From: a virus
Length of the DNA: 21,850 nucleotides
IMG/VR virus record: IMGVR_UViG_3300038701_001425
Location: 1 to 21,850 of that record
Reading direction: 5' to 3' (one strand)
Part shown: positions 2,815 through 21,175 of the stretch, piece by piece
How the letters are laid out: the number at the start of each line of letters is the position of its first letter
Position numbering within the stretch: position 1 is the first letter of the stretch
Notes under the pieces: model-generated
The model's database searches: none
What the model saw: only the letters and a program-made list of their open reading frames with translations
Told to the model about the DNA's origin: nothing
Translations under genes and position numbers: made by a program

Positions 2815-2829
2815 GGTGAGCCTCACAGC

Positions 2830-2860
2830 AAAAAGGGCCGGCGCTTTTGCGTCCGGCCCC
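2830..2860 (-). terminator. Rho-independent terminator-like hairpin upstream of the largest gene
   Basis: On the minus strand the stem is GGGCCGG paired with CCGGCCC, continued after one bulged A by CGC/GCG around an AAAA loop, and followed directly by TTTTT. It lies in the 99-base gap between the 536-aa gene (stop at 2914) and the large gene (start at 2814). It could end the upstream transcript or act as a partial terminator that lowers expression of the downstream gene. Confidence 0.8.
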
Positions 2861-2861
2861 T

Positions 2862-2877
2862 TATACCACATATTGGT
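2862..2877 (-). promoter_or_regulatory. Copy A of the CAAYATGTKGTAT motif
   Basis: The minus strand reads CAATATGTGGTATAAG. It contains TGGTATAAG, close to an extended -10 promoter element (TGnTATAAT). It is also an inverted repeat, TACCA-N5-TGGTA. The same motif occurs in three other non-coding positions (13765-13787, 20164-20178, 20205-20220). Here it sits immediately upstream of the terminator hairpin. Whether it is a promoter or an operator cannot be decided from sequence alone. Confidence 0.35.
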
Positions 2878-4524: not shown

Positions 4525-4958
4525 GCCATTGTCTCCGGAATAAGGCCCCGCTGAGGATCATACGCAAGGCGCATCGGCTGCTGTGGAATGTTTGCCGCAG
4601 GCAGCGCGGACATTTCAACAGGCGTGCCGAAGGACAACGGCGGCCCGTTTCTTGGAACCGCATCCATGATCGACATCCCGCCGAAGGACAGCGGCGGACC
4701 TCCGGCAGGGGCGGTTGTGGATTCAGGCGCGCGACCATAGTCCGCCGTTTCACTGGCGATAATATCACCTCGGGATGGGCCGCGTTTTTTGTTTGCCCGC
4801 TTCATGGCGAGCTCGTGCTTCTGGCGGTCCCAGCCGTGCTTTTCGCCTTCGCGCTCAAAGCGCGTGTCTTCCATCTTCCGAAGGCGCTTGTTGTTGTCCA
4901 TCGTGTCGCGGGCCTGCATCCCCCGGAACACGCCGTCCACAAAACTGCCGATTGCCAT
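4521..4958 (-). CDS. Small virion-associated protein, 145 aa, unknown function
   Basis: I chose the ATG at 4958 because GGAGG lies six bases upstream. A longer frame reaching 5174 would overlap the S74 gene and gives an Arg-rich, unlikely sequence. Residues about 15-60 are strongly charged and helical (alternating Lys, Arg, Glu), probably a coiled coil. The rest is Pro/Gly-rich with two copies of GPPLSFG (or a near copy), suggesting short linear motifs that contact another virion protein. It starts 11 bases after the S74 gene and overlaps the next gene by ATGA, so it belongs to the same late operon. I do not recognise the family. Confidence 0.75.
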   Translation of the reverse strand: MAIGSFVDGVFRGMQARDTMDNNKRLRKMEDTRFEREGEKHGWDRQKHELAMKRANKKRGPSRGDIIASETADYGRAPESTTAPAGGPPLSFGGMSIMDAVPRNGPPLSFGTPVEMSALPAANIPQQPMRLAYDPQRGLIPETMA

Positions 4959-4969
4959 GACTGGCCTCC

Positions 4970-6022
4970 TTACGCTGCTGCATGGCGCTTGGATGCGCCC
5001 ATTTTGTCTACCTTGGCGGCGAGTTCCTGAACCGCCCCCATCGTCACGCCGATCGCGTCTATGACGCTGATCTCTTTGCCGTTGCCCAGACCTGTCGCCT
5101 TCTGGAAGTCCTCTGCATAGGGCCCGATGTGCTTCTTGCCGCCACCGTCGCCCATACCCTGCTTGTATTCCCATTCCTCGACCGGCATGTCGCGCACCGC
5201 ATCGAGGACGGACATAGGCTTGCGCTTGGCTGTCTTATATTCCTTGGAGGACATCATGGCGAAGCCCGCGACGGAACCTGCCGCGCCGGCGATATCGCCG
5301 AGTAGGGATTGGCTGCCCTGCCATGCCCGCAAGTTGTTCTGATACTGATTGTTCAGCGTGCTTGCGAGATTTCTTTGCCCCTGCATCGCGGTTGAGGCGC
5401 CGTTTGCAACCATGTTTGCCGCGTTGCTGATGCCATTCATGCCCGCGTTCATCCCGGTGCTGCCCGCATTGGTCCCCATCTGAAAGCTGGTTCCGGGGTT
5501 GACGGACAGGCCCCGCCCCATGTCGATTGAGGACGCGCGCAGGGAACGACCTGTAGCCTCAGTGTTGCGCCGGGCAGCATTTGCGGCGCCCGCCGCCGCC
5601 AAGGCCTCGGTTGTCTGCGCCCTGTTTGCAGAGGATTGATAGCGCCCGGAATTGGGGTTGACCCCGACGGCTGCCATTTGGCGTTCGTTCTGCTTGCGTC
5701 CGAGAGCGAATTGCTGGCGCACATCTGCCACGGCTTCGTCAGCGGCCATAGCCTTGCGCTCAGGGCTGTCATACGCGTTCGCTTCCGCAATCCAGTCATC
5801 TTGCAGCGGGACAAAGGTGTCCGTGTAGCGCGCGCGGTCCTCAGCGGCCCAGCCGTCCGTGACCGCGGCGCGGTCCATCATCCAGCCCATATACTCGCGC
5901 GACATATCCAGTTGTTGCTGCGCGAAACGCTCCTGCGCTTTTTGCGCTCGGTCGGCGATCCGTGCTTGCTCCAAAGCGGCCATGCCGATCATCGGGTCTG
6001 GCCGTGGCGGTTTGCTTCCCAT
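4970..6022 (-). CDS. Helical virion protein with C-terminal peptidase S74 intramolecular chaperone, 350 aa
   Basis: Residues 15-160 are helical and rich in Ala, Gln, Arg and Met. Residues about 165-235 are Gly/Asn/Met-rich, and a short hydrophobic Gly/Ala stretch lies at about 241-257. From residue 257 the sequence matches the peptidase S74 (endosialidase-type) chaperone pattern. It has S258-S-K-E-Y-K263 with the Ser and Lys spaced as in the self-cleaving dyad, then W284-x-Y286, then H298-I-G-P and an aspartate-containing helix to the end. In known proteins this domain helps trimer folding of fibres or spikes and then cuts itself off. Here it sits on a body that looks more like an ejection or internal protein than a beta-rich fibre, which is unusual. 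It begins one base after the GNAT-like gene (TGACATG), with GAGGA upstream. Confidence 0.85.
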   Translation of the reverse strand: MGSKPPRPDPMIGMAALEQARIADRAQKAQERFAQQQLDMSREYMGWMMDRAAVTDGWAAEDRARYTDTFVPLQDDWIAEANAYDSPERKAMAADEAVADVRQQFALGRKQNERQMAAVGVNPNSGRYQSSANRAQTTEALAAAGAANAARRNTEATGRSLRASSIDMGRGLSVNPGTSFQMGTNAGSTGMNAGMNGISNAANMVANGASTAMQGQRNLASTLNNQYQNNLRAWQGSQSLLGDIAGAAGSVAGFAMMSSKEYKTAKRKPMSVLDAVRDMPVEEWEYKQGMGDGGGKKHIGPYAEDFQKATGLGNGKEISVIDAIGVTMGAVQELAAKVDKMGASKRHAAA

Positions 6023-6023
6023 G

Positions 6024-6449
6024 TCAGTCGTCCTCTTTTAGCCAAGGGCACTCGTCCCGCGTCATGCCGAAATATACACCATCCGTGCCGTCATGTGCAC
6101 CACATTTAGTAGCGCCTTCAACTTTGAACCCTATATGTAGGCAAGCTGTTAGCGCGGGGATATTCCACGACGGGATTGTCGTTTTGATTTTGCGAACGCC
6201 CAGAAACTTGAATGCGTATCCGAAAACCACGCTGAACACCGAGCGTTGCGCCCACGTCTTGCGCCTGTTGCTTGCGATGTGAATGTCGCAAGAGTTTTCG
6301 CAGCGGTTGTCGATCGTCACCACCGCGTGCAGCACGCCTGCGTCATCCACCACGCCCAAGGCAATGCTGTCGTCGCGCATGGCCACCTGCCCATGCCAGA
6401 TAGCGGCTTGGCGCAAGAGGGCCTGCTGGTTGTCCATTGTAACGCGCAT
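6024..6449 (-). CDS. GNAT-like N-acetyltransferase family protein, 141 aa
   Basis: The start at 6449 overlaps the stop of the preceding gene (TAATG), so I prefer it to a longer frame. The C-terminal half (about residues 80-125) matches the helix-strand-helix of phage GNAT-like proteins: F-x-Y-A-F-x-x-L-G-V-x-K-I-x-T-x-I, then N-x-P-A-L, then H-I-G-F-K-V-E-G. This is the region that carries the acetyl-CoA fold's last helix and beta strand in RimJ/RimL-type enzymes. The classical pyrophosphate-binding loop (Q/R-x-x-G-x-G/A) is not clear; the segment A-S-N-R-R-K-T-W-A stands in its place, so activity is uncertain. Similar small genes occur near tail and internal protein genes of podoviruses, and their substrate is not known to me. 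Confidence 0.7.
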   Translation of the reverse strand: MRVTMDNQQALLRQAAIWHGQVAMRDDSIALGVVDDAGVLHAVVTIDNRCENSCDIHIASNRRKTWAQRSVFSVVFGYAFKFLGVRKIKTTIPSWNIPALTACLHIGFKVEGATKCGAHDGTDGVYFGMTRDECPWLKEDD

Positions 6450-6670
6450 TACGCTGTCCCCGGCTGTGTCGGCCACACAGGGTTAAACGGGTCAGCCGTG
6501 TTGCTAGGCAGGTCACGCAGTGCCTGGCGATATGTGGCCCATGCTGCGGCGTCCACGGGCGCATCTGCTACTTGTGTCCAGTCGGATGCAGCAAGGCGGC
6601 GGTTACGCTCGATACGCAGAGCATCCCATGCAGCTGCTTCCCGGCGCGCATTAGTCACGGTGATCTTCAT
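6449..6670 (-). CDS. Tail fibre assembly chaperone-like protein, 73 aa
   Basis: The sequence carries the recognisable pattern of small tail-fibre assembly proteins: R-N-R-x-L-A-x-S-D-W-T-Q, then D-A-P-V near residue 40, then W-x-x-Y-R-Q-A-L-R-D-L-P, then N-P-V-W-P near the end. Such proteins bind fibres and help them trimerise or attach. The ATG at 6670 overlaps the stop of the preceding gene (ATGA), and GAGGTG lies eight bases upstream. A longer upstream reading would overlap most of the neighbour and is rejected. The position, two genes after the tail fibre, fits the assigned role. Confidence 0.85.
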   Translation of the reverse strand: MKITVTNARREAAAWDALRIERNRRLAASDWTQVADAPVDAAAWATYRQALRDLPSNTADPFNPVWPTQPGTA

Positions 6671-7059
6671 GTGACTGTCACCTCGCAAGATGCCTCGACC
6701 CACGGAAACGGCGGGCGCAGGGTCACGGGCCATACGCCGGGCGCGGCGAAGCTCAAGGTTAGACCGGTTTCATCCGTCGTCCCAACAACCTCGCCGTCTA
6801 TCTCGACCTCTGTGCCAGCGGGCACGTCCAATATTACCCAATCGGTGTTGGCTGTGATGGTATAGGCTGTTGGTAATCCGATGACTGGGCGCGGAGCCAC
6901 GGTTCCGTTGAGGATGTAGTCACCCTCAAAATTAAAGTCTTCCGTGTGTATTGATCCCAACTCGCTTCTAGGCGGTGTTGAGTACTCTTCAGACCCAAAG
7001 TTGAACCCTATTATTTTCCCACTATTTTGGTCTAAGTTTTTTTCAAACCAAACTATCAT
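6667..7059 (-). CDS. Fibre-linked structural protein, 130 aa
   Basis: The ATG at 7059 overlaps the tail fibre stop as ATGA and has AGGGGA seven bases upstream. An ATG six codons earlier would overlap the fibre gene by 22 bases and is less likely. The first 70 residues are polar and come from unusually AT-rich DNA. The rest is beta-rich (T-E-V-E-I-D-G-E-V-V-G-T-T, then a Pro-rich W-P-V-T-L-R-P-P-F-P-W) and looks like a small Ig-like or PEGA-like sandwich. It may cap the fibre or be an adhesin-like part of it. No family is certain, and the context between fibre and fibre-assembly chaperone is the main clue. Confidence 0.75.
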   Translation of the reverse strand: MIVWFEKNLDQNSGKIIGFNFGSEEYSTPPRSELGSIHTEDFNFEGDYILNGTVAPRPVIGLPTAYTITANTDWVILDVPAGTEVEIDGEVVGTTDETGLTLSFAAPGVWPVTLRPPFPWVEASCEVTVT

Positions 7060-8693
7060 CGCTTTATCCCCTGACACAACAAAGATATTCTTCTTGAAAC
7101 TCCGGGTGGAAAACCTGATGTTATTAAAACCCTGAATGCTACAAACCCATTACCCCTATAAACTATGTCTGAGAACGGGAGATTAGTGCCACTTGAGGTG
7201 ATAGTAGTCCAAGTAATTCCATTATTAGAAACCTGAAAACTAAAAGCCCCTGCACCCCCAGTAACCCCCACAGTAACAAATAAAGGGATGGTTTTCCCAG
7301 AACCTAGTCCAGATATAGCGGCGGATGCCACAACATTTGACGATGCTGTATCAACCACCACAGAGCCAAATGGAACTGTAACCGCATCCTCCGCTATATT
7401 TAGTGTGTCAACTGCCGCGTTTTGGATTTTAGCGTTGGTAATTAGTGCGTTATTGATCTGGGCGGAGTTAGTGATGATACCACTTGTTGCCAGCAATCCA
7501 CCTGTAATCGTATTAGCTACAATCTTGTTGCCGGTGATGGTATTGGCTGCGATCTTGTCGCCTTCGATCGCCCCCGCCTCAATTTTAACGGCGGTGACGG
7601 CGTTGGTCGCAATTTTGTCCGCCGTCACAGCCCCTGCGGCGATTTCACTGGCAGCAACAGCCCCGGCTGCGATCTTGGCGGCGGTAATAGCATTGGTCGC
7701 GATGGTGTCAGCCGTGACAGCGCCAGCGGCCAGTTTTTCGGTAGTGACAGCCCCGGAAATGATGCTGCCCGCGGAGATTGCGTTTGCCGCCACTTTGTCG
7801 GCGGTGACAGCGCCAGCGGCGATCTTGGTCGCGTCAATGGCGCCTGCGGCGATCTTGGCGGCCTCAACGGCGCCAGCCTGAATTTTTACCGAGGTGACAG
7901 CGTTGCTTGCGATTTTGTCAGCTACGACTGAACCGGCTGCGATTTCTGCCGCTGACACCGCGCCTGCGGCGATCTTGGGTGCTGTGATCGCCTCGTCAGA
8001 AATCTGCGTCTCAGTTATCTGGCCGGTGAGCTTGGCCGCCGCAATGGCTGCGATCTGCGCATCGGTCAGTTGCCCGGTGATCTTGGATGCGGCCAGCCCA
8101 GCAATCTTGGCGTCAGTGATTGCCTGGTCATCAATTTGCGCTGTGGCGATCTGCCCCGCAATCTTGGCGGCATTGATGCTGGCGATCTGCGCGTCGGTGA
8201 TCTGGCCTGCGATCTTGGCGGCCTCAATCTCTGCGATCTGCTCATTGGTTAGTTGACCGATTACATCGATGGCAGGCACGCCCGCTGTCCACTCGTCACC
8301 GGTCCAGCGATAGAGCTTGTTGTCGACGGTGAGGAACACAAGCCGGCCAGGGAAATTGCCTGTCTCCGGCAGCACATCGACAATCTCGGGCGCGGAAAGA
8401 CCTGCGTTGCGAAACAGAAGCGCAGGATCTTCGATCAGGCCACTCAACTCCGTGATTGGTGCCTGAAACTGCTGAACGAACCTGCCGAACACACCGCCGA
8501 AGTATTCATCGAGCTCGCCTACCCGCACCGCGCGCTGACTGTCACTGCCGCGCTGACCGCTCAGGATCATGGCTTCTTCAAGGGCGCGCCGATCCATTGG
8601 GCTGCGTCCATCAACGTCACGCTGCCGAGGCTGTTCGTTGGCAATGGGCGGCACCCCACCCCATGCCGAACCGGGTGTTACATCATCGCTCAT
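7056..8693 (-). CDS. Tail fibre protein with decapeptide repeats, 545 aa
   Basis: Residues 1-145 form an attachment-like N-terminal region (about 62-145 look globular). Residues 147-230 contain irregular repeats of about 17 residues of the type Q-I-T-D-A-Q-I-A-x-I-x-A-A-K-I-A-G. Residues 231-400 are 17 consecutive decapeptides of consensus I-A-A-G-A-V-T-A-D-K. Residues about 435-545 form a distinct beta-rich tip. Such repeats are common in phage fibre and host-specificity proteins and form the elongated shaft; the tip is expected to bind the receptor. The gene overlaps its upstream neighbour by ATGA. The tip is encoded by DNA of much lower GC than the shaft, which suggests exchange of the receptor-binding end. 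Confidence 0.88.
   Translation of the reverse strand: MSDDVTPGSAWGGVPPIANEQPRQRDVDGRSPMDRRALEEAMILSGQRGSDSQRAVRVGELDEYFGGVFGRFVQQFQAPITELSGLIEDPALLFRNAGLSAPEIVDVLPETGNFPGRLVFLTVDNKLYRWTGDEWTAGVPAIDVIGQLTNEQIAEIEAAKIAGQITDAQIASINAAKIAGQIATAQIDDQAITDAKIAGLAASKITGQLTDAQIAAIAAAKLTGQITETQISDEAITAPKIAAGAVSAAEIAAGSVVADKIASNAVTSVKIQAGAVEAAKIAAGAIDATKIAAGAVTADKVAANAISAGSIISGAVTTEKLAAGAVTADTIATNAITAAKIAAGAVAASEIAAGAVTADKIATNAVTAVKIEAGAIEGDKIAANTITGNKIVANTITGGLLATSGIITNSAQINNALITNAKIQNAAVDTLNIAEDAVTVPFGSVVVDTASSNVVASAAISGLGSGKTIPLFVTVGVTGGAGAFSFQVSNNGITWTTITSSGTNLPFSDIVYRGNGFVAFRVLITSGFPPGVSRRISLLCQGIKR
7494..8003 (-). repeat. Array of 17 in-frame 30-bp units in the fibre gene
   Basis: The units encode decapeptides of consensus I-A-A-G-A-V-T-A-D-K with no insertion or deletion across 170 residues. 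Units differ by many substitutions, but several are nearly identical at DNA level. This makes the array prone to recombinational change in copy number and hence in fibre length. Confidence 0.85.
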
Positions 8694-10279
8694 GGTACAC
8701 TCAGATCATCGTAGGATTGCGCCATGGATATGCCGGTGATTGGAACATACCCGGTGATTTCGATTGCCCATTTCTTGGCCCGGAATCCGCCCGGTAAGCG
8801 CGCGGGTTCGTTCAAGTCGGACAACTCTCGTACGAGCGCACCATCGGCATAGACGCGGGTGAGGTTTGGCGTTGCGCCAGTGGGGACGGTTCCGATTGCC
8901 TCGTCGGCTTCGACAAGGATACCTGCGTAGCTGACGGGCGATGTCAGATTGTACAGGCGAGACCGCCAGACTTGGGCCTTCAGCTCTGCCTCTGGCGCAT
9001 CCCAGCGGTATATCTGGCGGCCCGCCTTGAGCATGTAGAGCGCGCCAGTAGCCGGATTACGCGTCATGGTAATCGGCTGCTCATCCGTTTCGATATAGTA
9101 AGGCTGCGCGCCTGTAATATCCACGATGCCCATAGATTGCTGCGCGTCCCCTACCGGGGTGTGGGCGTAGAAGTATCGGCCCTCGTATTGCTCGGCATGG
9201 AAGCTCGCCGGGTTCAAGGCCTTCCACTGCTCCACGGTGAACAGGTTGCGCGAGATCACTTCGGCGTTGTTTCCGGTGATCATCACGAGGCCTTCGGAAG
9301 ACGGATAGACAGCGGCGTAGCCCATATCGACAATGCCACGCTTGGCCACGCAAGGCAGGTCGCGTTCCATCTTTTCCATGACCATGTTTTCAGGTGCCGT
9401 GCCTTGGGCGACATAGGGCGTGGCTGTGGTCAGGATTGCCAGCGTCGTGCCGAACGCGGCCAGCCCCACGATGTCGCGATCCACGGTCAGGCGATACTTT
9501 TCCGGCCATGCGTGCGGGCGGAATGGCTCGGAGAATAGAACCTCCTTCCCGTCAAACGCGGCCATCATCCCGTTGGGCAGGGATACAAGCCCGGCCATGC
9601 TGTCGGGCGGCGGGTCATAGTCTGCCGAGGGCAGAACCTCCTGCAGGGGCCGCTCAGACAGATCATGGGTGTAGCTGGCGCTGGCGATTGGTATTTCGTC
9701 CACGAAGTACAGATCAGTGACGCCAAGCCCGCTTGTCTGCGAGCGGTAGATGCGGATGCGGTCAACGCCGCGCCCATCTGGTGCATCAGCGAACCCGGAC
9801 AGTGTGACGGTGTTTCCTGCGGACCAAAGGAAGGCGTCCGTTGTGGGCGATGGTGCGCTTTCCTCATCGAACTGAGTGACAAAGGTGTAGGCGTAGACCA
9901 CGAATGACGCGATTTCATCGTCGGGCGTGCCGCTCATATTCGCCGTGGGCGCGTCGGCGGGTGCAGGCAGGGCCAAAGGATATGTCACGCCTGCCACGCG
10001 CATCTTGGGCGTCCCATCGCCAGTCAGATAGAGCCTGTCATCGGCCACAGGCCCCGGCACAACGTCCACGTCCCCGGGGAAGGAAAACCATGCGTCCTTG
10101 TGATAGAAGATCGTGCCTGCATCGGCGGCCAAGGTCGTGACCAGCGCCTTTTGTCGGACCGGGGCGATGGTGCCATCATCCAGCCGGGTGTTGCGCGCCA
10201 CCTGCGCGTATTCCATCGGCAAAAGACGCGGGTGCCTGCGGGGTATCTCGCCCTTGAAGTCTGCAATGCGTATTTTCAT
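8690..10279 (-). CDS. Probable tail nozzle / stabilisation-type structural protein, 529 aa
   Basis: I placed the start at 10279 (M-K-I-R-I-A-D-F) because GAGG lies six bases upstream; an open frame reaching 10414 would cover the end of the preceding gene. The N-terminus has R-R-H-P-R-L-L-P and then A-R-N-T-R-L-D-D-G-T-I-A-P. I associate this start with large beta-rich phage structural proteins placed after the head-tail adaptors. Several segments of the form strand-turn-strand with conserved F-S-E-P-F-R-P-x-x-W-P (about residues 268-278) suggest a beta-propeller-like fold. By size and order it could be the tail nozzle, comparable with T7 gp12 or P22 gp10, but I see no diagnostic motif that proves this. 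It overlaps the fibre gene by ATGA. Confidence 0.75.
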   Translation of the reverse strand: MKIRIADFKGEIPRRHPRLLPMEYAQVARNTRLDDGTIAPVRQKALVTTLAADAGTIFYHKDAWFSFPGDVDVVPGPVADDRLYLTGDGTPKMRVAGVTYPLALPAPADAPTANMSGTPDDEIASFVVYAYTFVTQFDEESAPSPTTDAFLWSAGNTVTLSGFADAPDGRGVDRIRIYRSQTSGLGVTDLYFVDEIPIASASYTHDLSERPLQEVLPSADYDPPPDSMAGLVSLPNGMMAAFDGKEVLFSEPFRPHAWPEKYRLTVDRDIVGLAAFGTTLAILTTATPYVAQGTAPENMVMEKMERDLPCVAKRGIVDMGYAAVYPSSEGLVMITGNNAEVISRNLFTVEQWKALNPASFHAEQYEGRYFYAHTPVGDAQQSMGIVDITGAQPYYIETDEQPITMTRNPATGALYMLKAGRQIYRWDAPEAELKAQVWRSRLYNLTSPVSYAGILVEADEAIGTVPTGATPNLTRVYADGALVRELSDLNEPARLPGGFRAKKWAIEITGYVPITGISMAQSYDDLSVP

Positions 10280-10287
10280 GGCTGACC

Positions 10288-10950
10288 TCAGAAATCGTTG
10301 TACTTGGTGCGGCGGCGCGCTCGTTGCTGGCCTGTCAGGCTGACCGAGAAGTGTTGATCCATGAGCGCGTTGAACCGCTGTCCATAGAGGATACCGGCCT
10401 GCGGGTTTGTCCACGGCTTGCTTGGCTGCACCAGCAAACGGGCCAGCGCGCCGGCGGCAATGGCTTCGGCGTGCATTGTGTAGATGAACTCGGGGACGGC
10501 GTCGTAAGCGTCGACAACTATCCCCTTATCGTCCTGCTCCATTTCCGAGCCATTGACCGGCTTCAAAAACAGCGACAGGGATAGAGCGCCTTCTTGGAAG
10601 GGTAGAATGCGAACGGTGTTGTATTCGGCCTGCGTGATATAGCGAGGCGGTGTATCGGCGGTATCCTCGAAGGTCTTTTCGTCTACGTCTGAGTATTGCA
10701 GTGGTTCGAGCTTTGTCTCGCCGTTGAAGGTTGCGCTTTCGATCCGGTGGATGGCGGCGTAGGGCGGCGCTGTAAGGGCCTTGCCATCACGGTTGATATT
10801 GACGGCTGTCATGTGGCGCCAGCAAAGAGTGCGTTCGCAAAACTCTATCGCTGCAAGACGCAGATTGAATGTGGCCATTGCATGCGGGCATTCAGGCGCA
10901 TGCGGCAACACCATGGGCAAGAACTTGGTCAGCGAGACGGTAACGGTCAT
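10288..10950 (-). CDS. Neck or tail structural protein, 220 aa, function unknown
   Basis: The start at 10950 overlaps the preceding stop (ATGA) and has AGGGGG five bases upstream. The N-terminal 45 residues include L-P-H-A-P-E-C-P and a helix with E-F-C-E-R-T-L, a start often seen in proteins that follow head-tail adaptors in podovirus-type operons. The C-terminus is basic (R-A-R-R-R-T-K-Y-N-D-F). No enzymatic motif or membrane segment is evident. From its place between the adaptor-like gene and the nozzle-like gene I infer a role at the head-tail junction or tail tube. Confidence 0.75.
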   Translation of the reverse strand: MTVTVSLTKFLPMVLPHAPECPHAMATFNLRLAAIEFCERTLCWRHMTAVNINRDGKALTAPPYAAIHRIESATFNGETKLEPLQYSDVDEKTFEDTADTPPRYITQAEYNTVRILPFQEGALSLSLFLKPVNGSEMEQDDKGIVVDAYDAVPEFIYTMHAEAIAAGALARLLVQPSKPWTNPQAGILYGQRFNALMDQHFSVSLTGQQRARRRTKYNDF

Positions 10951-11639
10951 GCTTGCCCCCTGCGGTTGGTGGTGTTGACGTTGGCCGCGCCTTCAATGTC
11001 CAGACGAATGCCAAGGGCCGTTTGGAACAGGCCATAGTGGGCTTGCGCGCGCTGCGGCGCGCCGTTCAGGATCATGTCTTCGGCGTAGCAGCGATAGGTC
11101 ACGTAATCGGCCAAGGCGTTGAAATACACGCGGTCGAGAGGTGCGGTCGTGTTGCTGGCGATAGGGCCCTCGATCGGCGTAGGGATCATGGCGACAATCG
11201 CCTCTATGATGCCTTCCCCGTCATTGCCTGGGAATACATAGAACTGTCGAGGCTCGAACTCGTCGGCCACGACATGCTGCACAATGCGCGCGAAGGGTAC
11301 GAGTGCGGGGTCATGCCAATCAAGAAACTGGTCGTTCAGGATATCACGTCGTGCGGGCGTGATTGCCCTGCCCCCGACACGCGGCGTTGCGCCCTGCTCC
11401 CCTGCCACGTTGCGCACGGCTCGGATAAGGCCTGAATAGGCTTCCGGCACAGACTGAAGCGTGCCCTCGTCCAGTGTGATTTCGACAGTGCGCGCGAAGG
11501 CGGAGGGCTTCTGGACGGCAATTTCCAGAAGCCCATCGTTGAAATAGTCGAGCTTTGTTTCTGCGGTCCAGCGCACCTCATCAACGTCGCTCAGTGCCTT
11601 GGCCGCGCGCGAAAGAACCTCAGCGACGTTGACTGGCAT
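10947..11639 (-). CDS. Head-tail adaptor-like protein, 230 aa
   Basis: The sequence begins with a helix and the motif W-T-A-E-T-K-L-D-Y-F-N-D-G-L (about residues 24-37), then short strands and a long helix with L-A-D-Y-V-T-Y-R-C-Y-A-E-D (about 174-186) near the C-terminus. This helical start, the Y-F-N-D-G-L type motif and the C-terminal A-L-A-D-Y-V-x-Y-R-x-Y-x-E-D pattern are what I recognise from phage adaptor proteins that bind below the portal. It lies after the capsid-linked genes and before the nozzle-like gene, as expected for such a protein. The ATG at 11639 is five bases after the previous stop. The family assignment is from pattern memory and not verified. Confidence 0.75.
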   Translation of the reverse strand: MPVNVAEVLSRAAKALSDVDEVRWTAETKLDYFNDGLLEIAVQKPSAFARTVEITLDEGTLQSVPEAYSGLIRAVRNVAGEQGATPRVGGRAITPARRDILNDQFLDWHDPALVPFARIVQHVVADEFEPRQFYVFPGNDGEGIIEAIVAMIPTPIEGPIASNTTAPLDRVYFNALADYVTYRCYAEDMILNGAPQRAQAHYGLFQTALGIRLDIEGAANVNTTNRRGQA

Positions 11640-12593: not shown

Positions 12594-13685
12594 TCAGACA
12601 GCCTTCGCGTAGGTGTCGAGTGCGATAGAGCCGAAATCCCGCCCATTGAAACGGGTCTTTTTCACGCCCATGATGAGGCCAGCGACTACGGTGGGCTCGT
12701 TGTCGTAGTCCTCCATTTCCTCTTTCCACATATAGCGCATGCCGCCCGGGGTGCCGTATGCGACGACACCGGCTTGGCGGCCCAAGAAGAGGGCGCGCGC
12801 GGCGGGCAGGTCGCCACCGGTGCCGTAGTCATCAAAACGGATCACGTTTTCATGCTCATGAAGCACGACGTTGTTGATCATGCCCATGTTGCCACGGAAG
12901 ATCGGGTTCTTGCGGCCTTCGGCGGCGGCTGCCGCCTTCTGGAAGTCCAGCCACTTGGAGCCCGACGCGGTGCGCATGGTGTGGGCCTGATACGGCGACA
13001 TGACGGTGACGAAGTGCTTTTCGCCCTCCACGTCGACCGGCATCATGTCAGTGGCATCGGTGTCCTTCGCGCGGATCATCTTGGCGTGCGTTGCCGCGCG
13101 CTCGATCAGGTCCGTGGTCATAACGTCAGCGACGGCCAGATCGGCCTTGCCGGTTGCGTCACCGCCAAACATAATGTGAGCGGCATCAGGGGCCTGCAAG
13201 CTGTTGGTCGCAAAGCCCTCGAAGTCAGAAGGCTCGATGAACTCTTCGTTCATCCCGCGGGCACCCGAGAGATAGATGAAGTAAAGCTCGTCGATATACT
13301 GGGTCCAGTATTCGGCCAGTCGATCCTTGGCGATCTTGCGCATGTCGTGCAGCGTGCGCTTGCGGCTCATGCGGCCACCAGCGGACACGGGGTGCCGCAT
13401 CTGGTCGATCACAACTTCGTCCGTGAAGAACTTGAGGTTTTCTTCTTTGCCTTTCACGCGCTTGTCGCCGAAGGTCGGGCGCTGCTTGAGCTTCACCGAC
13501 AGGTCGAAGGAAATCCGGTCACCGGCATCGGATGCCAGGTCCATTTTTTCTTCGATGATGTTGTTTTCACCTTTACCCACGAACTTCTTGTTGAAGTACG
13601 AGTTGCGGTTAACCTGGGTTGCGAGTGTTGCCGCCCAGCGTTTCACCGCGCTAGGGTCGCCCCAGTTAAGGATGGTTTGTGTCAT
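12594..13685 (-). CDS. Major capsid protein, N4-gp56 family, 363 aa
   Basis: The protein forms the capsid shell. It matches the N4-gp56 / DUF4043 type of major capsid protein. Features include an early N-R-N-S-Y-F-N-K-K-F-V-G segment, then I-S-F-D-L-S-V-K-L near residue 60. Next comes G-R-M-S-R-K-R-T-L-H-D-M-R, then the helix A-K-D-R-L-A-E-Y-W-T-Q-Y-I-D-E-L near residue 120. A later W-L-D-F-Q-K-A lies before a conserved N-P-I-F-R-G-N-M-G-M segment. The start at 13685 is chosen because GAGGA lies just upstream; an ATG four codons earlier (13697) would place this ribosome site inside the gene. Scaffold is upstream and a decoration-like gene downstream. The leader in front of it has an unusual GGA-hairpin layout (see the leader feature). 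Confidence 0.93.
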   Translation of the reverse strand: MTQTILNWGDPSAVKRWAATLATQVNRNSYFNKKFVGKGENNIIEEKMDLASDAGDRISFDLSVKLKQRPTFGDKRVKGKEENLKFFTDEVVIDQMRHPVSAGGRMSRKRTLHDMRKIAKDRLAEYWTQYIDELYFIYLSGARGMNEEFIEPSDFEGFATNSLQAPDAAHIMFGGDATGKADLAVADVMTTDLIERAATHAKMIRAKDTDATDMMPVDVEGEKHFVTVMSPYQAHTMRTASGSKWLDFQKAAAAAEGRKNPIFRGNMGMINNVVLHEHENVIRFDDYGTGGDLPAARALFLGRQAGVVAYGTPGGMRYMWKEEMEDYDNEPTVVAGLIMGVKKTRFNGRDFGSIALDTYAKAV

Positions 13686-13690
13686 GTCAG

Positions 13691-13751
13691 TCCTCATCGA
13701 CTATGAAAGCGAGGCGGACATCCATGCCCTGTTATCATCGGCATCCAGCCG
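13691..13751 (-). promoter_or_regulatory. Capsid mRNA leader with GGA-loop hairpins, candidate CsrA target
   Basis: On the minus strand the first hairpin is CGGC-TGGAT-GCCG (13739-13751). The second is GGGCA-TGGA-TGTCC (13716-13729, one G-U pair). Both expose GGA in the loop. A third GGA (13691-13693) is part of the capsid Shine-Dalgarno sequence and can be partly enclosed in TAGTC-GATGAG-GACTG. The second site reads CATGGATGT, close to the known CsrA SELEX consensus core CARGGAUGU. CsrA dimers commonly bridge an upstream GGA hairpin and a ribosome-site GGA to block translation. The csrA-like gene lies directly upstream. Binding is inferred, not shown. Confidence 0.5.
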
Positions 13752-13764
13752 TGAACGATTATCA

Positions 13765-13787
13765 AATACCACATGTTGTGTGGAATT
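13765..13787 (-). promoter_or_regulatory. Copy B of the CAAYATGTKGTAT motif
   Basis: The minus strand contains CACAACATGTGGTATTTG and forms an inverted repeat, CCACA-N5-TGTGG, extended to AAT/ATT outside. It shares 15 identical bases with copy C near the terminase. A TTGGCA lies 18 bases before TATTTG, so it could be a promoter for the capsid gene as well as an operator; in RNA it would form a small hairpin. Confidence 0.35.
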
Positions 13788-13798
13788 GCCAATATCAT

Positions 13799-13975
13799 CT
13801 ACATATTGCGCTCCCATTCAGTTTTCGCCGCAACAGGTATGCGGGCGATGTTGATTTCGCGCGGGGCTTCTATGCCCACGGTCATGCGGCCTTTGGATGT
13901 TTCTTCTTTGACCACTAGCCGGATATCGTCTCCGATCTGGAGGCTTTCTCCGGCCTTGAGCTTGAGCGTAAGCAC
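13799..13975 (-). CDS. csrA: CsrA-family RNA-binding translational regulator, 58 aa
   Basis: The frame starts at a GTG with AGAGGGA eight bases upstream, 25 bases after the scaffold stop, and ends with TAG. The sequence follows the CsrA/RsmA pattern closely: L2-T-L4, then A8-G-E-S-L12, I14-G-D-D-I18, then G34-I-E-A-P-R39 and a C-terminal R45. In known CsrA proteins Leu4 and Arg44 contact RNA. Leu4 is kept, and R45 aligns with Arg44 after a one-residue insertion near residue 28. The usual E-E-I-Y after that Arg is replaced by I-P-V-A, and the usual T-R-R/K at positions 5-7 is K-L-K, so binding preference may differ. CsrA binds GGA motifs near ribosome sites as a dimer and normally represses translation. 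Placement inside a head-gene operon suggests control of late mRNA, host mRNA, or both. Confidence 0.85.
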   Translation of the reverse strand: MLTLKLKAGESLQIGDDIRLVVKEETSKGRMTVGIEAPREINIARIPVAAKTEWERNM

Positions 13976-13999: not shown

Positions 14000-15007
14000 T
14001 TATACGTCCATGCTGGCGAAGGCTTCGGCTTCGTCCGGCGACAGACTGGCGATGATGCGCTCGTATTCCTCTGGCCCTGCGCTTTCGAGGCGTTGCGCGA
14101 GCGCGGAATACTTCCCATCCGAGACGGACACCGGTGCTGCGTTGGGGACGTTGGCCAGTGTGACTGGGGCCTTGTCGCCCGGGCGTTTCTTTTGCGCGGG
14201 CGGCTGCGTGGCGTTGTCCTGTGCATGGGGCTGTGCATCCGCTTGAGGCGCGGGCTTTTCCTTGCCTTTGGGCGCGGGCACTTCAAGCCCAAGAACCTCG
14301 GCTTCAGCCGCATACAAGCGGTGCGCGGCCTCCAGCATTTGCCGGTGAGTCAGGTGTTGATACTGCGGGCTTGCAGTGATCGAGCGCACATGGCGGTCAT
14401 AGGCCTCGGCGTGGCTTTGGGTGGCGAGATCGGGGTATTCCCCGAAATAGCCCTTGGCTGCGCTGATGAATGCCTCGTAAACAGCCTTCTCTTGGCTTTC
14501 GGCCACGGCACGCTGTGAGATGGCTTCTTTTTCCACCCCTGCGATTTCATCCAGCTTTGCGAGGTATTCATCTCGCGAGATTTCCCCGTTCTCGTAGCGG
14601 TCGAACACATCTACCTTGGCGGATTTGAGGGCCTCGATTTCGGCGTCAATGGCGGACATGTCAGGGGCTTGGGTGCCGGTGGCCTGCTCGCCTTTGTCGC
14701 TGTCCTCGTCGGCATTGTCCTCGGCGGTATCGTCGCTGGCGGCCTGAGCTGCGGGTTCGCCTTGGTCGCTCCCTTCGTCAGCCGCATCGCTCACCCCCTC
14801 GTCTGCGTCATCATTGTCGGTTGCGCCCTCGTTCTCCTCGTCGTCAAAAAGTGCCGCGCGTTCCTCGTCGCTGAGAAGGCGCATGTCCTCTTCGGTCCAT
14901 TCCTCGTCATCGCTGGGCGCGTCCTCGATCTCGGGCAGATCGTCCTGCGCCTGTTCGGCCTGCGCCTGATCCTCGGTCACGTCGTCTTTGATGTCGTCGT
15001 TAGGCAT
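14000..15007 (-). CDS. Scaffold protein, 335 aa
   Basis: The start at 15007 is preceded by AAGGAGGG with seven bases of spacing; the longer open frame to 15091 covers the neighbouring small gene and is rejected. Residues 1-115 are extremely acidic (Asp/Glu with Ala, Gln). A helical, coiled-coil-like centre (about 118-235) follows, then a Pro/Gln/Lys linker (about 245-290) and a short helical C-terminus that ends A-F-A-S-M-D-V. An acidic N-terminus, coiled centre and small C-terminal helix that docks on the capsid are typical of phage scaffolds. Its place between portal and major capsid protein agrees. No protease domain is visible. Confidence 0.85.
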   Translation of the reverse strand: MPNDDIKDDVTEDQAQAEQAQDDLPEIEDAPSDDEEWTEEDMRLLSDEERAALFDDEENEGATDNDDADEGVSDAADEGSDQGEPAAQAASDDTAEDNADEDSDKGEQATGTQAPDMSAIDAEIEALKSAKVDVFDRYENGEISRDEYLAKLDEIAGVEKEAISQRAVAESQEKAVYEAFISAAKGYFGEYPDLATQSHAEAYDRHVRSITASPQYQHLTHRQMLEAAHRLYAAEAEVLGLEVPAPKGKEKPAPQADAQPHAQDNATQPPAQKKRPGDKAPVTLANVPNAAPVSVSDGKYSALAQRLESAGPEEYERIIASLSPDEAEAFASMDV

Positions 15008-15027
15008 GTGGTTTCCCTCCTTGTGCC

Positions 15028-15204
15028 TTATGCTGCGGTGAAGTCTTTGACGCGGCTGGCGTGCATCCATCCGTCGCGCCAGTTTGCCCATTGGCCGGGG
15101 TATTCATCCGGCTTGAACGGTGCGTCCTTGATGTGCGGGTTAGCCTCCAGCGGCTTGCCTTGGGCGAAAGCCTGCTGTCCTGCGAGAAACGGGGGCAAAC
15201 TCAC
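15028..15204 (-). CDS. Rmf/CrpP-like small protein, 58 aa
   Basis: The GTG at 15204 overlaps the portal stop as GTGA, so translation is coupled to portal. The protein has the spacing G-x-x-A-F-x-x-G-x-x-x-x-x-N-P-H, then a short loop, then W-R-D-G-W-M-H-A. This is close to the G..A...G.....NPY...W..GW..A pattern of ribosome modulation factor and the CrpP-like small proteins. In E. coli, Rmf joins 70S ribosomes into inactive dimers. Phage relatives of this pattern exist, but their role is not known to me. The Tyr of NPY is His here. It could act on host ribosomes late in infection, or have drifted to a structural role. It stops 20 bases before the scaffold start and includes no signal or membrane segment. 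Confidence 0.65.
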   Translation of the reverse strand: MSLPPFLAGQQAFAQGKPLEANPHIKDAPFKPDEYPGQWANWRDGWMHASRVKDFTAA

Positions 15205-17519
15205 GCCATGCCCTCCATCATTGCCGGATCGCCTTGCATGGCCTGCTGGCCCTGCTCCTGCATCGTCTGCTGTTCCTGCATCGCCATGGCCTGCTGCTCG
15301 GCCAATGCGGCTTCTTCTTCGGCCATGGCCTGCTGGCGGGCCTCATCCACTGGCGAGACGTAGCCGGAACGGTTGAGTACGTTATCGACCACTGGCGCGG
15401 CGGGCGCGGCTGAAAGGATTTGCAAGGCAAGCTCCAGCGCGTCCTTCTGCGTCTGAATGTTCTCGCGCGGCATGCCTTTGAGAACCTTCATCGCGTCGGC
15501 CTTGGCCTTTTCGGCGCGCGCCATCTTCTCAGCAGCTTCGCCTTCCAGCTTGGCAAGGTTGGCTTGCGCCGCTCTGGTCTCCATCTCGGCTTGTGCGGCC
15601 TTGCCTTTCTCCCGGGCCTCTCGCTCTGGATCGGGCTGGTTCGGATCGGCGTCGGGGTCTTCCATGCCTGTAATCTGGCGGATGCGGTTGACCACTTCGT
15701 CGCCGCTTGGCAGGTCCATCATTTCGACCACAAGATCGAGTAGAACCATGACGATCTGGGGCGCGACAGGCCCAACCTGCGTGAGAAGCTCCATGAACTG
15801 CTGCACCGCGGCTTGGCGGAGCGATGCGTTCCAAGCGTCTTCGCTGATAATGTAGTCTGCCTTCGTGCGCACGATGTCGTTCTCGGGCAGCCCGTCATTG
15901 ATGGTGATGTAGTCAGGCGACCCGCGGCGGTTTGTGATCCGGAAGGTCTTTTCTTCGGTCATGAACTGCTCGGACAGGCTCAGCACCTTTTCGCCATGCA
16001 CCTGCCGGGCAAGCCGTAGGTTATCGAAGATAGCGGCGGTGGACATGGCCCCTTGCTCTTGACGGGACTGGATAGCCTTTCCGCTGGTCGCATTTGTGGT
16101 GCGGCCCATGGCTTCGTCTGTGATGCCTGATAGCGTTTGCACCATGGACATGCTGAGGTTCATGATATCGAGGTGCGCGGATGCCAGCTCGCGGTCTGCG
16201 CTGATATCCAGAGCCTTTCCCGGGCGTTTGACGATGATTGAATCGGGCCGGCTGATTTCCTCTTCGAACTCGTCCAGGTCTTCGACCGCGCCCTCATCCA
16301 TGATCACCTTGTTGGAATTGATGATCGCCAAGGCCTTGGACAGGCGCTTGTTGAGGTCTTTCTGGGCGCTAATCATGCCGCGAATGATGCCATATGGCGT
16401 GTTGTCGGCTGCTTTGCGGTATCCCCAGATTGGGGTGAAGGGGTAGCGGTTGTGGCGGTAAGGGCTTGGTGACATCCAAAGGACGCCGCGAAGAGTCATG
16501 ACCATGACATGCACGCGCTGCGTCAGTCGCTTACGCACCTCTGCAAAGCCGCTGGATATGGATACTTGATGACCGAGGCTTTCACGGTCGTAAATTTCGC
16601 CCGTAAACTCCCCGCCTGCCATGCGCTCTTCCATGACCGGCACTTTGAACCATGCTTCGATCAAGCGGACGCGATCGCGGGCATAGCTGGGGTGTTCGAT
16701 GCTGTGATATTGGCTGTGTGCCTGCTCGGACAGGTATTCCTGGCTGTCCATGGGCTGATCGCCGTGCCGGTCGAGGAACGCGCCCCACTCGTAATGGCTT
16801 GACGTGCTGGCCTGCACGATGCCTTTGCGCTCAGGGAACATTGCGCAGGCGGTATCAACGTCCACCCACTTGGTGCGAAAGATGAAGCGGGCATCAGACA
16901 GGTCGAGCTCTTGGGCCGCCGTGTCATAGATGATGTTGCGCCAGCTTTCGTGGCGCTCGTAAATCGGCTCGCCTTCGCTGTCATCTTGCACACCGCTCTC
17001 GATCCAGCCCAAGCCCACCTTGGCCGCGTCCGCAAAGGATCGGGACACATGGAACTCGGTCTTGTTCACGTCTGCCAGATACTTGAGCAGGTGGCTTTTC
17101 TTCTCCGCGCTGGCCAACGCATTCTTGTTGCGGGGCAGGATGCGGTAATCGACCCGGGTGCGGCGCTCTGTGCCCAGCACCCAGTTGATACTTTGGGCGA
17201 TGACGTTGTATGTGAGCGGCTCTTGCCCGCGCTTTTGGAGTACGGCAAGGGCCTCCTGGTCCCACTGGTCGTGGTCATAGAATGCCTCGTCTTGCTCCAT
17301 CAGGCGGCGGCTGTTGCCTTGGGCGTCGAGCTCGCGCAGGTAGTGGCCTATCAGGCGGCCATGCAGCTCTTGGGCGCGCAGGCTGTCCAGATCGGACTTG
17401 ATGGCTTTGTCGACCTCCCCGAGGAAAGCCGCCGACGGCACCTTGAAGCGGTCTTCGGGTGTTTGGTCGGGCTTGACCCGGGCCTCGATCTGGTTCGGGC
17501 TATCGTATGGGTCACGCAT
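15201..17519 (-). CDS. Portal protein, P22-type, 772 aa
   Basis: The portal forms the dodecameric ring through which DNA enters and leaves the head. The length is close to the P22 portal (725 aa). It has the expected N-terminal helices and then a Y-N-V-I-A-Q-S-I-N-W-V-L-G-T-E-R-R-T-R segment at about residues 104-122. The central region has W-R-N-I-I-Y-D and, further on, Y-G-I-I-R-G-M-I-S-A-Q-K-D-L-N-K-R-L-S-K-A. A clip/stem region with S-G-I-T-D-E-A-M-G-R-T-T-N-A-T-S-G-K follows. From about residue 640 a long Ala/Glu/Lys coiled coil is followed by a Met/Gln/Ala-rich tail, comparable with the P22 portal barrel. GGAGGTG lies seven bases before the ATG, and the gene overlaps its upstream neighbour by eight bases. 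Confidence 0.92.
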   Translation of the reverse strand: MRDPYDSPNQIEARVKPDQTPEDRFKVPSAAFLGEVDKAIKSDLDSLRAQELHGRLIGHYLRELDAQGNSRRLMEQDEAFYDHDQWDQEALAVLQKRGQEPLTYNVIAQSINWVLGTERRTRVDYRILPRNKNALASAEKKSHLLKYLADVNKTEFHVSRSFADAAKVGLGWIESGVQDDSEGEPIYERHESWRNIIYDTAAQELDLSDARFIFRTKWVDVDTACAMFPERKGIVQASTSSHYEWGAFLDRHGDQPMDSQEYLSEQAHSQYHSIEHPSYARDRVRLIEAWFKVPVMEERMAGGEFTGEIYDRESLGHQVSISSGFAEVRKRLTQRVHVMVMTLRGVLWMSPSPYRHNRYPFTPIWGYRKAADNTPYGIIRGMISAQKDLNKRLSKALAIINSNKVIMDEGAVEDLDEFEEEISRPDSIIVKRPGKALDISADRELASAHLDIMNLSMSMVQTLSGITDEAMGRTTNATSGKAIQSRQEQGAMSTAAIFDNLRLARQVHGEKVLSLSEQFMTEEKTFRITNRRGSPDYITINDGLPENDIVRTKADYIISEDAWNASLRQAAVQQFMELLTQVGPVAPQIVMVLLDLVVEMMDLPSGDEVVNRIRQITGMEDPDADPNQPDPEREAREKGKAAQAEMETRAAQANLAKLEGEAAEKMARAEKAKADAMKVLKGMPRENIQTQKDALELALQILSAAPAAPVVDNVLNRSGYVSPVDEARQQAMAEEEAALAEQQAMAMQEQQTMQEQGQQAMQGDPAMMEGMA

Positions 17520-19601: not shown

Positions 19602-20155
19602 TGCTCATCGCCTGCCTTGGCTGTTGCAATGGGTGTTGGCTTTGCCTTGGTGAATGCCTCAAGCAACCCGCTCAGGCTGTTGGCAACATCACGATCTGCC
19701 TTGTCGTTCATCCCCAGATAGCCAGCGAGCTTGTCGAGGGCCTTCAGGCGGTCCAGCGGCTTAATCTTGACCTTTAGCAAGTCTCCCGGCGTCTCTCCGG
19801 GCATTTGGTGACGGTCTGTCTGTATCTCGGCCAGAAGGTCCAGATCGGCGGGTGTGCATCGTGACAGGTCGATCTGAGGCGTTCCGTCTTCACCAATGCT
19901 CACGAATTTGGACAGGCCGGAGAAGGCGATGCGCTCGTATTCGGCTATGACATCATCGAGGGTTTTGGCTGTGCGCTTGGCGGCTGCGCTCATGATTTCA
20001 TGGACGCGCGCTTGGACCTTTTCATTCCCTTTCAAGCGCGAAGCGTTCCCGTCATTCCGCTTGTATCCCGCCGAAACATAAGCATCGCTCGCGCTCGCGC
20101 CTTTTGCGAGAGCCTGTGCGAATGCTTCATGCTTTGGATTAGAAAGGATGCCCAT
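19598..20155 (-). CDS. Terminase small subunit, Terminase_2-like, 185 aa
   Basis: The sequence starts N-P-K-H-E-A-F-A-Q-A-L-A-K-G-A-S-A-S-D-A-Y-V-S-A-G-Y and continues with S-R-L-K-G-N-E-K-V. This is the helix-turn-helix DNA-binding pattern of the Terminase_2 family, which recognises the packaging site and presents DNA to TerL. A central helical oligomerisation region follows (about 55-85), and the C-terminus is Ala/Lys-rich. I prefer ATG at 20155; a GTG at 20170 is also in frame but lies inside motif copy C. No strong ribosome site precedes either start. The gene overlaps terL by ATGA. Confidence 0.9.
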   Translation of the reverse strand: MGILSNPKHEAFAQALAKGASASDAYVSAGYKRNDGNASRLKGNEKVQARVHEIMSAAAKRTAKTLDDVIAEYERIAFSGLSKFVSIGEDGTPQIDLSRCTPADLDLLAEIQTDRHQMPGETPGDLLKVKIKPLDRLKALDKLAGYLGMNDKADRDVANSLSGLLEAFTKAKPTPIATAKAGDEQ

Positions 20156-20163
20156 GCCCTGAG

Positions 20164-20178
20164 ATACCACATGTTGTG
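20164..20178 (-). promoter_or_regulatory. Copy C of the CAAYATGTKGTAT motif, at the terminase start
   Basis: The minus strand reads CACAACATGTGGTAT, identical over 15 bases to copy B in front of the capsid gene. It ends nine bases before the preferred terminase ATG. Its core is 41 bases from the core of copy D, about four helical turns, which would suit cooperative binding by one regulator. Confidence 0.35.
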
Positions 20179-20259: not shown

Positions 20260-20383
20260 ATGGCGGGTTTCTGCACTGAATGCCTCGATCACGCATTATT
20301 GCCTTGCTTGCGGCGGCATCACCTATCATATTGATAGCCATGGCGGGCAAGAAAAACAAAGTTTTAGGACTGATGAACGCTGA
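20260..20383 (+). pseudogene. Possible frameshifted tiny zinc-ribbon ORF
   Basis: An ATG at 20260 with AGGGA eight bases upstream begins M-A-G-F-C-T-E-C-L-D-H but stops after 24 codons. The +1 frame continues H-Y-C-L-A-C-G-G-I-T-Y-H-I-D and stops at 20383, overlapping the proposed toxin start. Joined by a one-base skip near 20293, the two give about 40 residues with two CxxC pairs, like a small zinc ribbon. This may be chance, a sequence error, or a broken gene. Confidence 0.2.
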
Positions 20384-20669
20384 TACTTTTCAGCGAGAGG
20401 TGCGTGACCGCGCGAAGTTTACGCACGCTGTCCGGATCACAGATCATGTGTTGCTGGATAACGCGCATAGAAACATTACGCGCATGATGATCATCCGTGC
20501 TTTGCGCAAGGGGACGCTTAGGAAAGCCCCTGTATGGGACGCTGCCTACGGGAACTGGACGGGGGCTATACAACACATCGGCACTGGCACTGACCTTACC
20601 GTTGTGTGCGCTCTGAAAGAGGGCGTTTTGACGGTTACGGTCGTGACGGCATATGGCACGCCGAAGTAA
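20373..20669 (+). CDS. DUF4258-like toxin of a type II toxin-antitoxin pair, 98 aa
   Basis: The protein has the DUF4258 pattern: H-A-V-R-I-T-D-H near residue 17, then R-N-I-T-R-M-M-I-I-R-A-L-R-K-G-T-L, then G-N-W-T-G-A-I, and a C-terminal L-T-V-V-C-A-L and L-T-V-T-V-V-T-A-Y. This family is related to RelE/MqsR-type mRNA-cutting toxins, so ribonuclease activity is inferred. The frame is open back to 20280. I prefer ATG 20373 because AGGA lies three bases upstream and the length then fits the family; the longer N-terminus is only a hydrophobic stretch without a ribosome site. The antitoxin gene follows after 17 bases. The pair lies on the strand opposite to the late operon. Confidence 0.75.
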   Translation: MNADTFQREVRDRAKFTHAVRITDHVLLDNAHRNITRMMIIRALRKGTLRKAPVWDAAYGNWTGAIQHIGTGTDLTVVCALKEGVLTVTVVTAYGTPK

Positions 20670-20686
20670 GTTTTGGGAGAGACGCA

Positions 20687-21175
20687 ATGACAGATTTTAT
20701 GCACCCACATAACGCGGGGGAACGCTACCACTACACTGACAGTGGGCTTCACAACATCTGGCTTGTCGGTGGCGTTGATCGTGTTGAAACGCCCTACGGA
20801 ATGGCGACCTCAATCCGGGACTTGGATGAGCTTCACATGGAGATTGGCCGCGCTATAGCATCCAAGGCCTTGTCGAGCGGCGAGATAAGCGGGGCTGAGT
20901 TTCGATTTCTACGGCAAGAGCTTGAGCTTTCGCAGAAGGCTTTGGGCCGGTTGCTACACTGCAACGAGCAGCAGATTCACCGATGGGAAGGTGAGAAGTC
21001 AGGCTTACCAGGCACGGCGGCTGTTGCTCTTGCCGGTTATTACATCGAGGCGACTGATCCAGAGAGCCGCGTAAAGGATTTGCTTGATCGGTATGCGGAG
21101 CTTGACGCGCTGGAAGCCAGGTCAGAAATGATCTTCACCATGAAACAGGACCACTGGGAGCCGGAGGCGGCTTGA
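20687..21175 (+). CDS. HTH antitoxin (MqsA/HigA-like) paired with the DUF4258 toxin, 162 aa
   Basis: The start is ATG 20687 with GGGAGAG just upstream. Residues 14-30 (Y-H-Y-T-D-S-G-L-H-N-I-W-L) are a signature of antitoxins that accompany DUF4258 and MqsR-type toxins. Residues about 71-101 form a helix-turn-helix: E-F-R-F-L-R-Q-E-L-E-L-S-Q-K-A-L-G-R-L-L, then Q-Q-I-H-R-W-E. The N-terminal CxxC zinc knuckles of classical MqsA are absent. The protein should bind its own promoter and neutralise the toxin. The toxin-first order is as in mqsRA and higBA. The palindrome at 20208-20217 is a candidate operator, though this is a guess. Confidence 0.8.
   Translation: MTDFMHPHNAGERYHYTDSGLHNIWLVGGVDRVETPYGMATSIRDLDELHMEIGRAIASKALSSGEISGAEFRFLRQELELSQKALGRLLHCNEQQIHRWEGEKSGLPGTAAVALAGYYIEATDPESRVKDLLDRYAELDALEARSEMIFTMKQDHWEPEAA

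Follow-up and report, generated by a model that had tools for sequence, protein, structure and literature searches.

The window, the whole 21,850-nucleotide stretch analysed here (positions 1 to 21,850 of IMG/VR virus record IMGVR_UViG_3300038701_001425), carries on its minus strand a terminase, a P22-like portal, a gene in scaffold position, a csrA-like gene, a gap of 113 nt and a major capsid protein (MCP) gene. The portal gene (15201..17519) matched Pfam P22_portal at 605 bits. The gene at 14000..15091 belonged to phrog_8246, a group of unknown function, and its position between portal and MCP suggests that it encodes the scaffold. Both lie upstream of the csrA-like gene (13799..13975), which has a GTG start and a product of 58 aa. 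The MCP gene (12594..13685, 363 aa) matched Pfam Phage_capsid_3 at 216.7 bits and phrog_334, major head protein; the 113-nt gap runs from the end of the csrA-like ORF to the MCP ATG at 13685, and a further in-frame ATG is found at 13697. The sequence CATGGACGT at 14004-14012 was considered as a regulatory site and rejected because it is accounted for by the codons S-M-D-V at the end of the scaffold-position gene. The plus strand carries, at 20280-21175, a small ORF followed by a helix-turn-helix gene, and the two look like a toxin-antitoxin pair.

A preliminary description of this DNA had named the gene next to the capsid leader csrA-like, and profile and structure searches bore this out. The product scored 49.1 bits against Pfam PF02599 (curated cut-off 27) and was assigned in PHROGs as a CsrA-like regulator. 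Its AlphaFold2 model (pLDDT 86) had CsrA, RsmA or RsmE as all of its best 15 PDB matches, with TM scores of about 0.5-0.76. Alignment with E. coli CsrA showed that the window protein and the other members of its clade retain the equivalents of L4 and R44, which are critical RNA-binding residues; R44 was absent from many distant phage CsrA members. The window protein is a true member of the CsrA family. Very divergent CsrA-like ORFs, missed by the profile searches, were also seen directly before the MCP gene in loci L076, L077, L082 and L051 (e.g. MPLLRKIRALDTLTISRDGEEPVVVQVRRVNAAEVRLCVIAPDDVRVT).

The MCP mRNA leader is predicted to occupy 13686..13756 of the minus strand (about 70 nt). A promoter-like pair, TTGGCA-18-TATTTG (13763..13792, minus strand), was read by eye and would place the mRNA start near 13756; its position was kept in the related loci L002-L006, L016 and L017, and it fell below a strict consensus scan. 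Among the relatives at large, -10-like boxes were general and mostly lay 12-18 nt before the hairpin designated A below, and their conservation points to a promoter in the csrA-MCP gap.

Two hairpins with GGA in their loops and a third GGA in the capsid ribosome-binding site (RBS) had been noted in this leader, and all three were found in place on the minus strand. Hairpin 1 (13739..13751) reads CGGC[UGGAU]GCCG and holds the second GGA site. Hairpin A, numbered hairpin 2 in the preliminary description, reads GGGC[AUGGAU]GUCC (13716..13729) and contains CATGGATGT at 13726-13718, which resembles the CsrA consensus (CANGGANGU). The CsrA consensus obtained by SELEX is RUACARGGAUGU, in which GGA has to sit in a short hairpin loop and GU has to come next (PMC7652899). 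The window site GGGCAUGGAUGU, in hairpin A, matches it from CA onwards, in keeping with the description of one site as close to consensus. The Shine-Dalgarno sequence is GAGGAC (13690..13695), and its GGAC (13693-13690) can pair with GUCC of the hairpin A 3′ arm (13719-13716). This second pairing, termed mask B, was identified from the leader's own complementarity, its predicted fold and the swap test described below.

Hairpin candidates with GGA loops were concentrated in the MCP leader, with 3 in 80 nt against 0.19 per 80 nt expected over the whole strand, and none of the other window leaders checked had more than two. The sequence CATGGANGT occurred 3 times in the window (0.51 expected), one non-leader copy being due to coding sequence. 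A search of the window for further copies of the element gave none besides the one before the MCP gene. The stability of the 131-nt region was nothing unusual when compared with shuffled sequences (z = 0.06); stability was therefore dropped as evidence, and the signal lies in conservation and covariation.

Relatives were collected with the MCP as bait, an earlier scan of viral contigs with the csrA protein having given one locus only. The resulting set of 80 IMG/VR loci and named phages covered many hosts and provided 72 non-redundant MCP leaders. Hairpin A was present in 65 of the 72; among dinucleotide-shuffled leaders its share was 2.0%, and among leaders of other ORFs it was 12 of 434. The search pattern was drawn up after inspection of the alignment, so the evidence is the contrast with these controls and not the count itself. 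The closing pair was always C-G and the same G-U wobble was usually present, with loops of the types AUGGAN, AGGAN, AAGAN and AUGAN or a tetraloop version; the family-wide form is GCGC[ANGGAN/ANGAN/ANGA]GUGC. Since the MAFFT alignment of the leaders displaced the tetraloop members, pairs were counted sequence by sequence and the pair-counting tool was not used on the alignment. No Rfam family matched at gathering score in the leaders of the window, L022, L034, L026, L016 and L031.

Of the two hairpins and the Shine-Dalgarno GGA, only hairpin A was conserved across the family. Hairpin 1 was restricted to the window's clade (the window and L002-L006), where its loop varied and GGA was retained, and GGA in the Shine-Dalgarno sequence was common only in the window's wider clade. 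Neither hairpin 1 nor the Shine-Dalgarno GGA belongs to the conserved design.

Comparison of the leaders together with folding analyses indicated that the capsid leader is a two-state switch, in which hairpin A and the RBS-masking structure B share one arm. In 60 of the 65 leaders with hairpin A, three or more of the four bases in the A 3′ arm can pair around the Shine-Dalgarno sequence or the start codon; B pairs poorly by this count of arm bases in five (e.g. L003 and L100). The A 5′ arm, the A 3′ arm and the RBS partner covary three ways: they read GCGC/GUGC/GCAC in most phages, GGGC/GUCC/GGAC in the window's clade and ACGC/GUGU/ACAC in L062. When arms and RBSs were exchanged among leaders, the own-own pairing scored -11.09 as against -8.58 (sd 0.29) for permuted pairs, and the best of 2000 permutations reached -9.57. 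Predicted RBS pairedness was 0.71 at MCP starts compared with 0.49 at other starts (p = 8e-26), so that such masking is uncommon in these genomes.

Folding analyses of the relatives gave a mean probability of A of 0.73 in the nascent RNA and 0.02 in the full-length leader, a result consistent with a model in which A would form in the nascent 5′ RNA and be displaced once the RBS is transcribed. In the window, A was predicted at about 0.43 in the nascent RNA, and the minimum-energy fold of the full leader was B, without hairpin A. Holding A in the predictions lowered the RBS pairing from 0.75 to 0.50, with a reduction in 62 of 65 leaders; in the window the decrease was only from 0.71 to 0.53. 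Because A and B are mutually exclusive, any binder of A should open the RBS.

Mask B could also operate without protein, as a fixed translational damper or an RNA thermometer, with hairpin A a by-product of the B arm. Pairing of the RBS in B would by itself explain the conservation of GANGUGC. The A 5′ arm (GCGC, GGGC or ACGC), however, is unneeded for most of B and yet changes in step with the 3′ arm. The loop A-N-(G)GA, too, persists in copies that have different B partners. We regard a protein-free mask as very improbable, and as the least probable of the explanations weighed here.

The same element was found before other late genes of the relatives. Its core motif, GCGCANGA(N)GTGC, occurred 109 times in 45 phage records, compared with 13 occurrences of the reversed pattern. 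Outside the MCP leaders, 47 of the 53 copies examined lie 20-65 nt before an ORF start; a -10-like box precedes 40 of these 47 (10% at random positions), and the pairing of the non-MCP copies with their own RBSs was better than in all 5000 permutations (0/5000). The element precedes endolysin genes in LASTA, Itty13, Stean, Skulduggery, POI1126 and PBC5, and also the gene of a giant DarB-like protein that includes a cell-wall hydrolase domain, genes for an internal virion protein and for an endosialidase-chaperone virion protein (POI1126), and a tail-fibre gene in Mwe-JY07. The endolysins behind it belong to the unrelated families GH108, N-acetylmuramidase and lysozyme, which indicates that the element became attached to different genes and was not inherited with one. 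In view of these copies, control of capsid timing specifically, as first proposed, is not supported. As part of the whole best explanation, we somewhat favour the reading that many relatives have a late-gene regulon, marked by copies before genes for endolysins, tail fibres, internal virion proteins and DarB-like proteins.

Copies inside the DarB-like gene of JC1, CSP3, BcepMigl and L086 are probably not leaders, since they are part of coding sequence and no proper start follows them. At L226 (PBC5 961-972), with a matching site in L012, L013 and L019, the loop of the hairpin A motif holds the start codon of an integrase, so that the same protein might turn the integrase off and late genes on. 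The motif was also seen upstream of a small acetyltransferase-like gene in L184, L188, L210 and L220, which by eye resembles window 6024-6476.

The distribution of the element followed that of csrA closely. A csrA-like ORF was found in the same locus for 58 of the 65 leaders with hairpin A, and a weak or divergent match was found in 6 of the other 7 records, so that the hairpin, which could have proved unconserved in relatives that keep csrA, is retained with it. In Atu_ph08 the MCP gene lies about 27 kb away and csrA is still with the portal and scaffold genes, as expected of a trans-acting factor. KLEP18-1 and RHph_Y1_10, more distant capsid relatives without csrA, had no leader copy, the sole motif match in RHph_Y1_10 being inside an ORF. 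In the closest relative without csrA (L007), a methyltransferase-like fragment occupies the place of csrA (1-433) and hairpin A is lost; on a contig of just 5.3 kb, this is possibly a natural loss of both. PA8, an F116-like phage of another lineage, encodes besides its known canonical CsrA a second, phage-type CsrA (MSKKMSVDLKVGEVLLIDGTAIRLEKKSGQVARLQI) in its structural region (L245, PA8 3300-11000) and has the motif three times, in two cases at a distance of 37-38 nt from the ORF start that follows. An A-like hairpin occurred in just 2 of about 50 csrA leaders, which gave no indication of csrA autoregulation.

In about half of the family the loop holds GA and not GGA, and many of the corresponding proteins are without R44; recognition there cannot be the canonical contact of CsrA with GGA. 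In raw counts, R44 accompanied GGA loops in 22 of 26 cases and GA-only loops in 5 of 26 (Fisher 4e-6). Mapped on the MCP tree, this amounted to 2-3 independent concordant changes with no discordant ones in most pairings, which is not significant, and co-evolution of the GGA loop and R44 is therefore suggestive only.

These departures from GGA and R44 would also fit a switch that is real and answers to another protein, such as the capsid, the scaffold or a host factor, with csrA a mere neighbour. A single peptide of JC1 CsrA was detected in virions (PMC9144972), which likewise leaves room for another role of the protein. Copies on unrelated genes, however, make a capsid-specific ligand unlikely, and the element and the phage-type CsrA occur together even in PA8 and are jointly absent from two related phages. 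The retention of csrA with portal and scaffold where the MCP has moved also speaks for csrA itself. No PF02599 gene was found in two alphaproteobacterial host genomes of relatives (Breoghania and a Sinorhizobium MAG), so that host CsrA is not the general ligand. Absence of csrA has also been reported for Burkholderia hosts of csrA phages (PMC7366521). Another ligand is therefore improbable, and the phage CsrA is the most likely trans-acting partner.

The preliminary description had proposed a csrA-tied switch that holds back or tunes capsid synthesis. The translational control element is supported by the conservation of hairpin A and its linkage to csrA, and by its rarity in leaders of other ORFs; repression as the default direction is not, as the RBS is masked without protein in the predicted fold. 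Repression of the glgC type would require a phage CsrA dimer to bridge hairpin A, or hairpin 1, to the Shine-Dalgarno GGA and so block ribosomes. The layout of the window's clade fits this and weighs there against activation. The Shine-Dalgarno sequence of the window, L002, L004-L006, L016 and L017 includes GGA. In the window it follows the GGA of hairpin A at 27 nt, within the 10-63 nt bridging range of a CsrA dimer (PMC7652899), and two loop GGAs lie upstream. Most relatives with csrA and hairpin A, by contrast, have a Shine-Dalgarno sequence without GGA or have not kept it (JC1 CGAGGCAT, LASTA GAGGGC). Repression of this type also presupposes an RBS that is accessible unless CsrA is bound, whereas the RBS of the free window leader was predicted to be paired at 0.71 and the protein site to be exclusive with the mask. 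Bridging to the Shine-Dalgarno sequence is a possible arrangement in the window's clade; as the explanation of the element it is unlikely, although less so than another ligand.

An RBS masked without protein and a CsrA-like site exclusive with the mask, as indicated by folding prediction and covariation, are the features of activation of the ymdA type. Activation by the phage CsrA, the opposite of the repression proposed, is thus the best-supported reading, in which we infer both binding and its direction. We give a probability of roughly 0.55 to a capsid leader that is a two-state switch with the phage CsrA as its most likely trans-acting partner, freeing the RBS. According to this model, a promoter inside the csrA-MCP gap, suggested by the conserved -10-like boxes, would start the mRNA just before the hairpins. 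Hairpin A, which lies on the 5′ side and has a small stem closed by a loop of the form ANGGAN or ANGAN, would fold first. Once the RBS is transcribed, the A 3′ arm would re-pair with the Shine-Dalgarno and start region as B and translation would be shut, a step with comparative and folding support. Phage CsrA expressed from the portal-scaffold-csrA genes would bind nascent hairpin A, prevent B and leave the RBS free, so that late proteins would be made only once the CsrA-like regulator is present. In the window's clade there is a further GGA hairpin 23 nt upstream, and a single CsrA dimer could occupy the two hairpins together. The broader proposal is a phage-autonomous regulon of translational licensing, in which a CsrA paralogue would turn on capsid, lysis, ejection and tail genes by capturing a 5′ hairpin common to them all, which would otherwise refold and mask each RBS, the loop and the protein pocket having co-evolved away from GGA and R44 in some lineages. 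We hold it tentatively, at a little less than even odds.

Activation by CsrA has a precedent in E. coli ymdA, where CsrA destabilises the leader structure that keeps ribosomes from binding (PMC7492729). As proposed for the capsid leader, the 5′ leader of ymdA has CsrA sites and masks its own Shine-Dalgarno sequence by default, and binding opens it. In ymdA, however, a single host gene is the target of host CsrA, whereas the phage case has a phage-encoded regulator and a short covarying element on many late genes. The glgC leader (reviewed in PMC7652899) resembles the capsid leader in having a loop GGA just upstream, and in the window's clade only in having GGA in the Shine-Dalgarno sequence; it differs in that the RBS of the phage leader is predicted to be masked without protein and its Shine-Dalgarno GGA is not conserved in relatives. 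Phage Mu offers a parallel to the proposed role, in that its small RNA-binding protein Com activates the translation of a phage mRNA, but Com is a zinc-finger protein of unrelated fold and its target is mom (PMC6483171).

Phage csrA genes have been catalogued before (PMC7366521). The order of csrA and capsid gene is likewise already published for Lessievirus, a csrA-like gene directly before the MCP gene appearing in papers that cover BcepIL02, DC1, BcepMigl, JC1 and CSP3 (PMC9144972, PMC10269572); the leader element is also present in the DNA of these five phages. The JC1 paper labels csrA a moron gene (PMC9144972), and the searched passages of the JC1 and CSP3 papers contain no description of a CsrA target or of the leader element (PMC9144972, PMC10269572). 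Phage PTXU04 similarly encodes a CsrA family protein, knock-down of which leads to smaller plaques (PMC11879866). Its csrA differs in lying beside lysis genes, and PTXU04 was rejected as a published test case because its CsrA is elsewhere in the genome and no copies of the element were found. As recently as 2025, what phage CsrA does during the phage life cycle was described as untested (PMC11879866). Neither the leader nor the regulon was found described in Rfam or in the openly available papers searched, and nor was any phage mRNA or gene as the target of a phage-encoded CsrA.

Phage CsrA genes have so far been labelled morons or factors of host takeover; if the activation model is true, they would be dedicated regulators of the phage's own late genes, which would explain the retention of csrA with the portal and scaffold genes. 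It would also place a layer of late-gene control at translation and not transcription, and the family would offer a natural series of protein-RNA pairs with changed CsrA pocket and loop. A conserved family of RNA switches accompanying phage csrA points to a previously undescribed means by which phages time their late proteins.

Several minor features were noted at starts in the window. A CAAYATRTGG/TAG element lies around the capsid promoter (13763-13812, minus strand) as a direct repeat flanking the -35 box, and again just before the giant virion gene (2863-2873, minus strand) and the start of the terminase small subunit (20164-20174, minus strand); it is perhaps a shared promoter site. At the terminase small-subunit start (about 20145-20175, minus strand), which reads GGGCATGGGCATCC and recalls hairpin A, the ATG lies about 10 nt past a TATCTC box, and the mRNA may therefore be nearly leaderless. 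In the leader of the giant DarB-like gene (about 2820-2865, minus strand), a promoter-like element is followed immediately by a terminator-like hairpin (GGGCCGG..CCGGCCCTTTTT).
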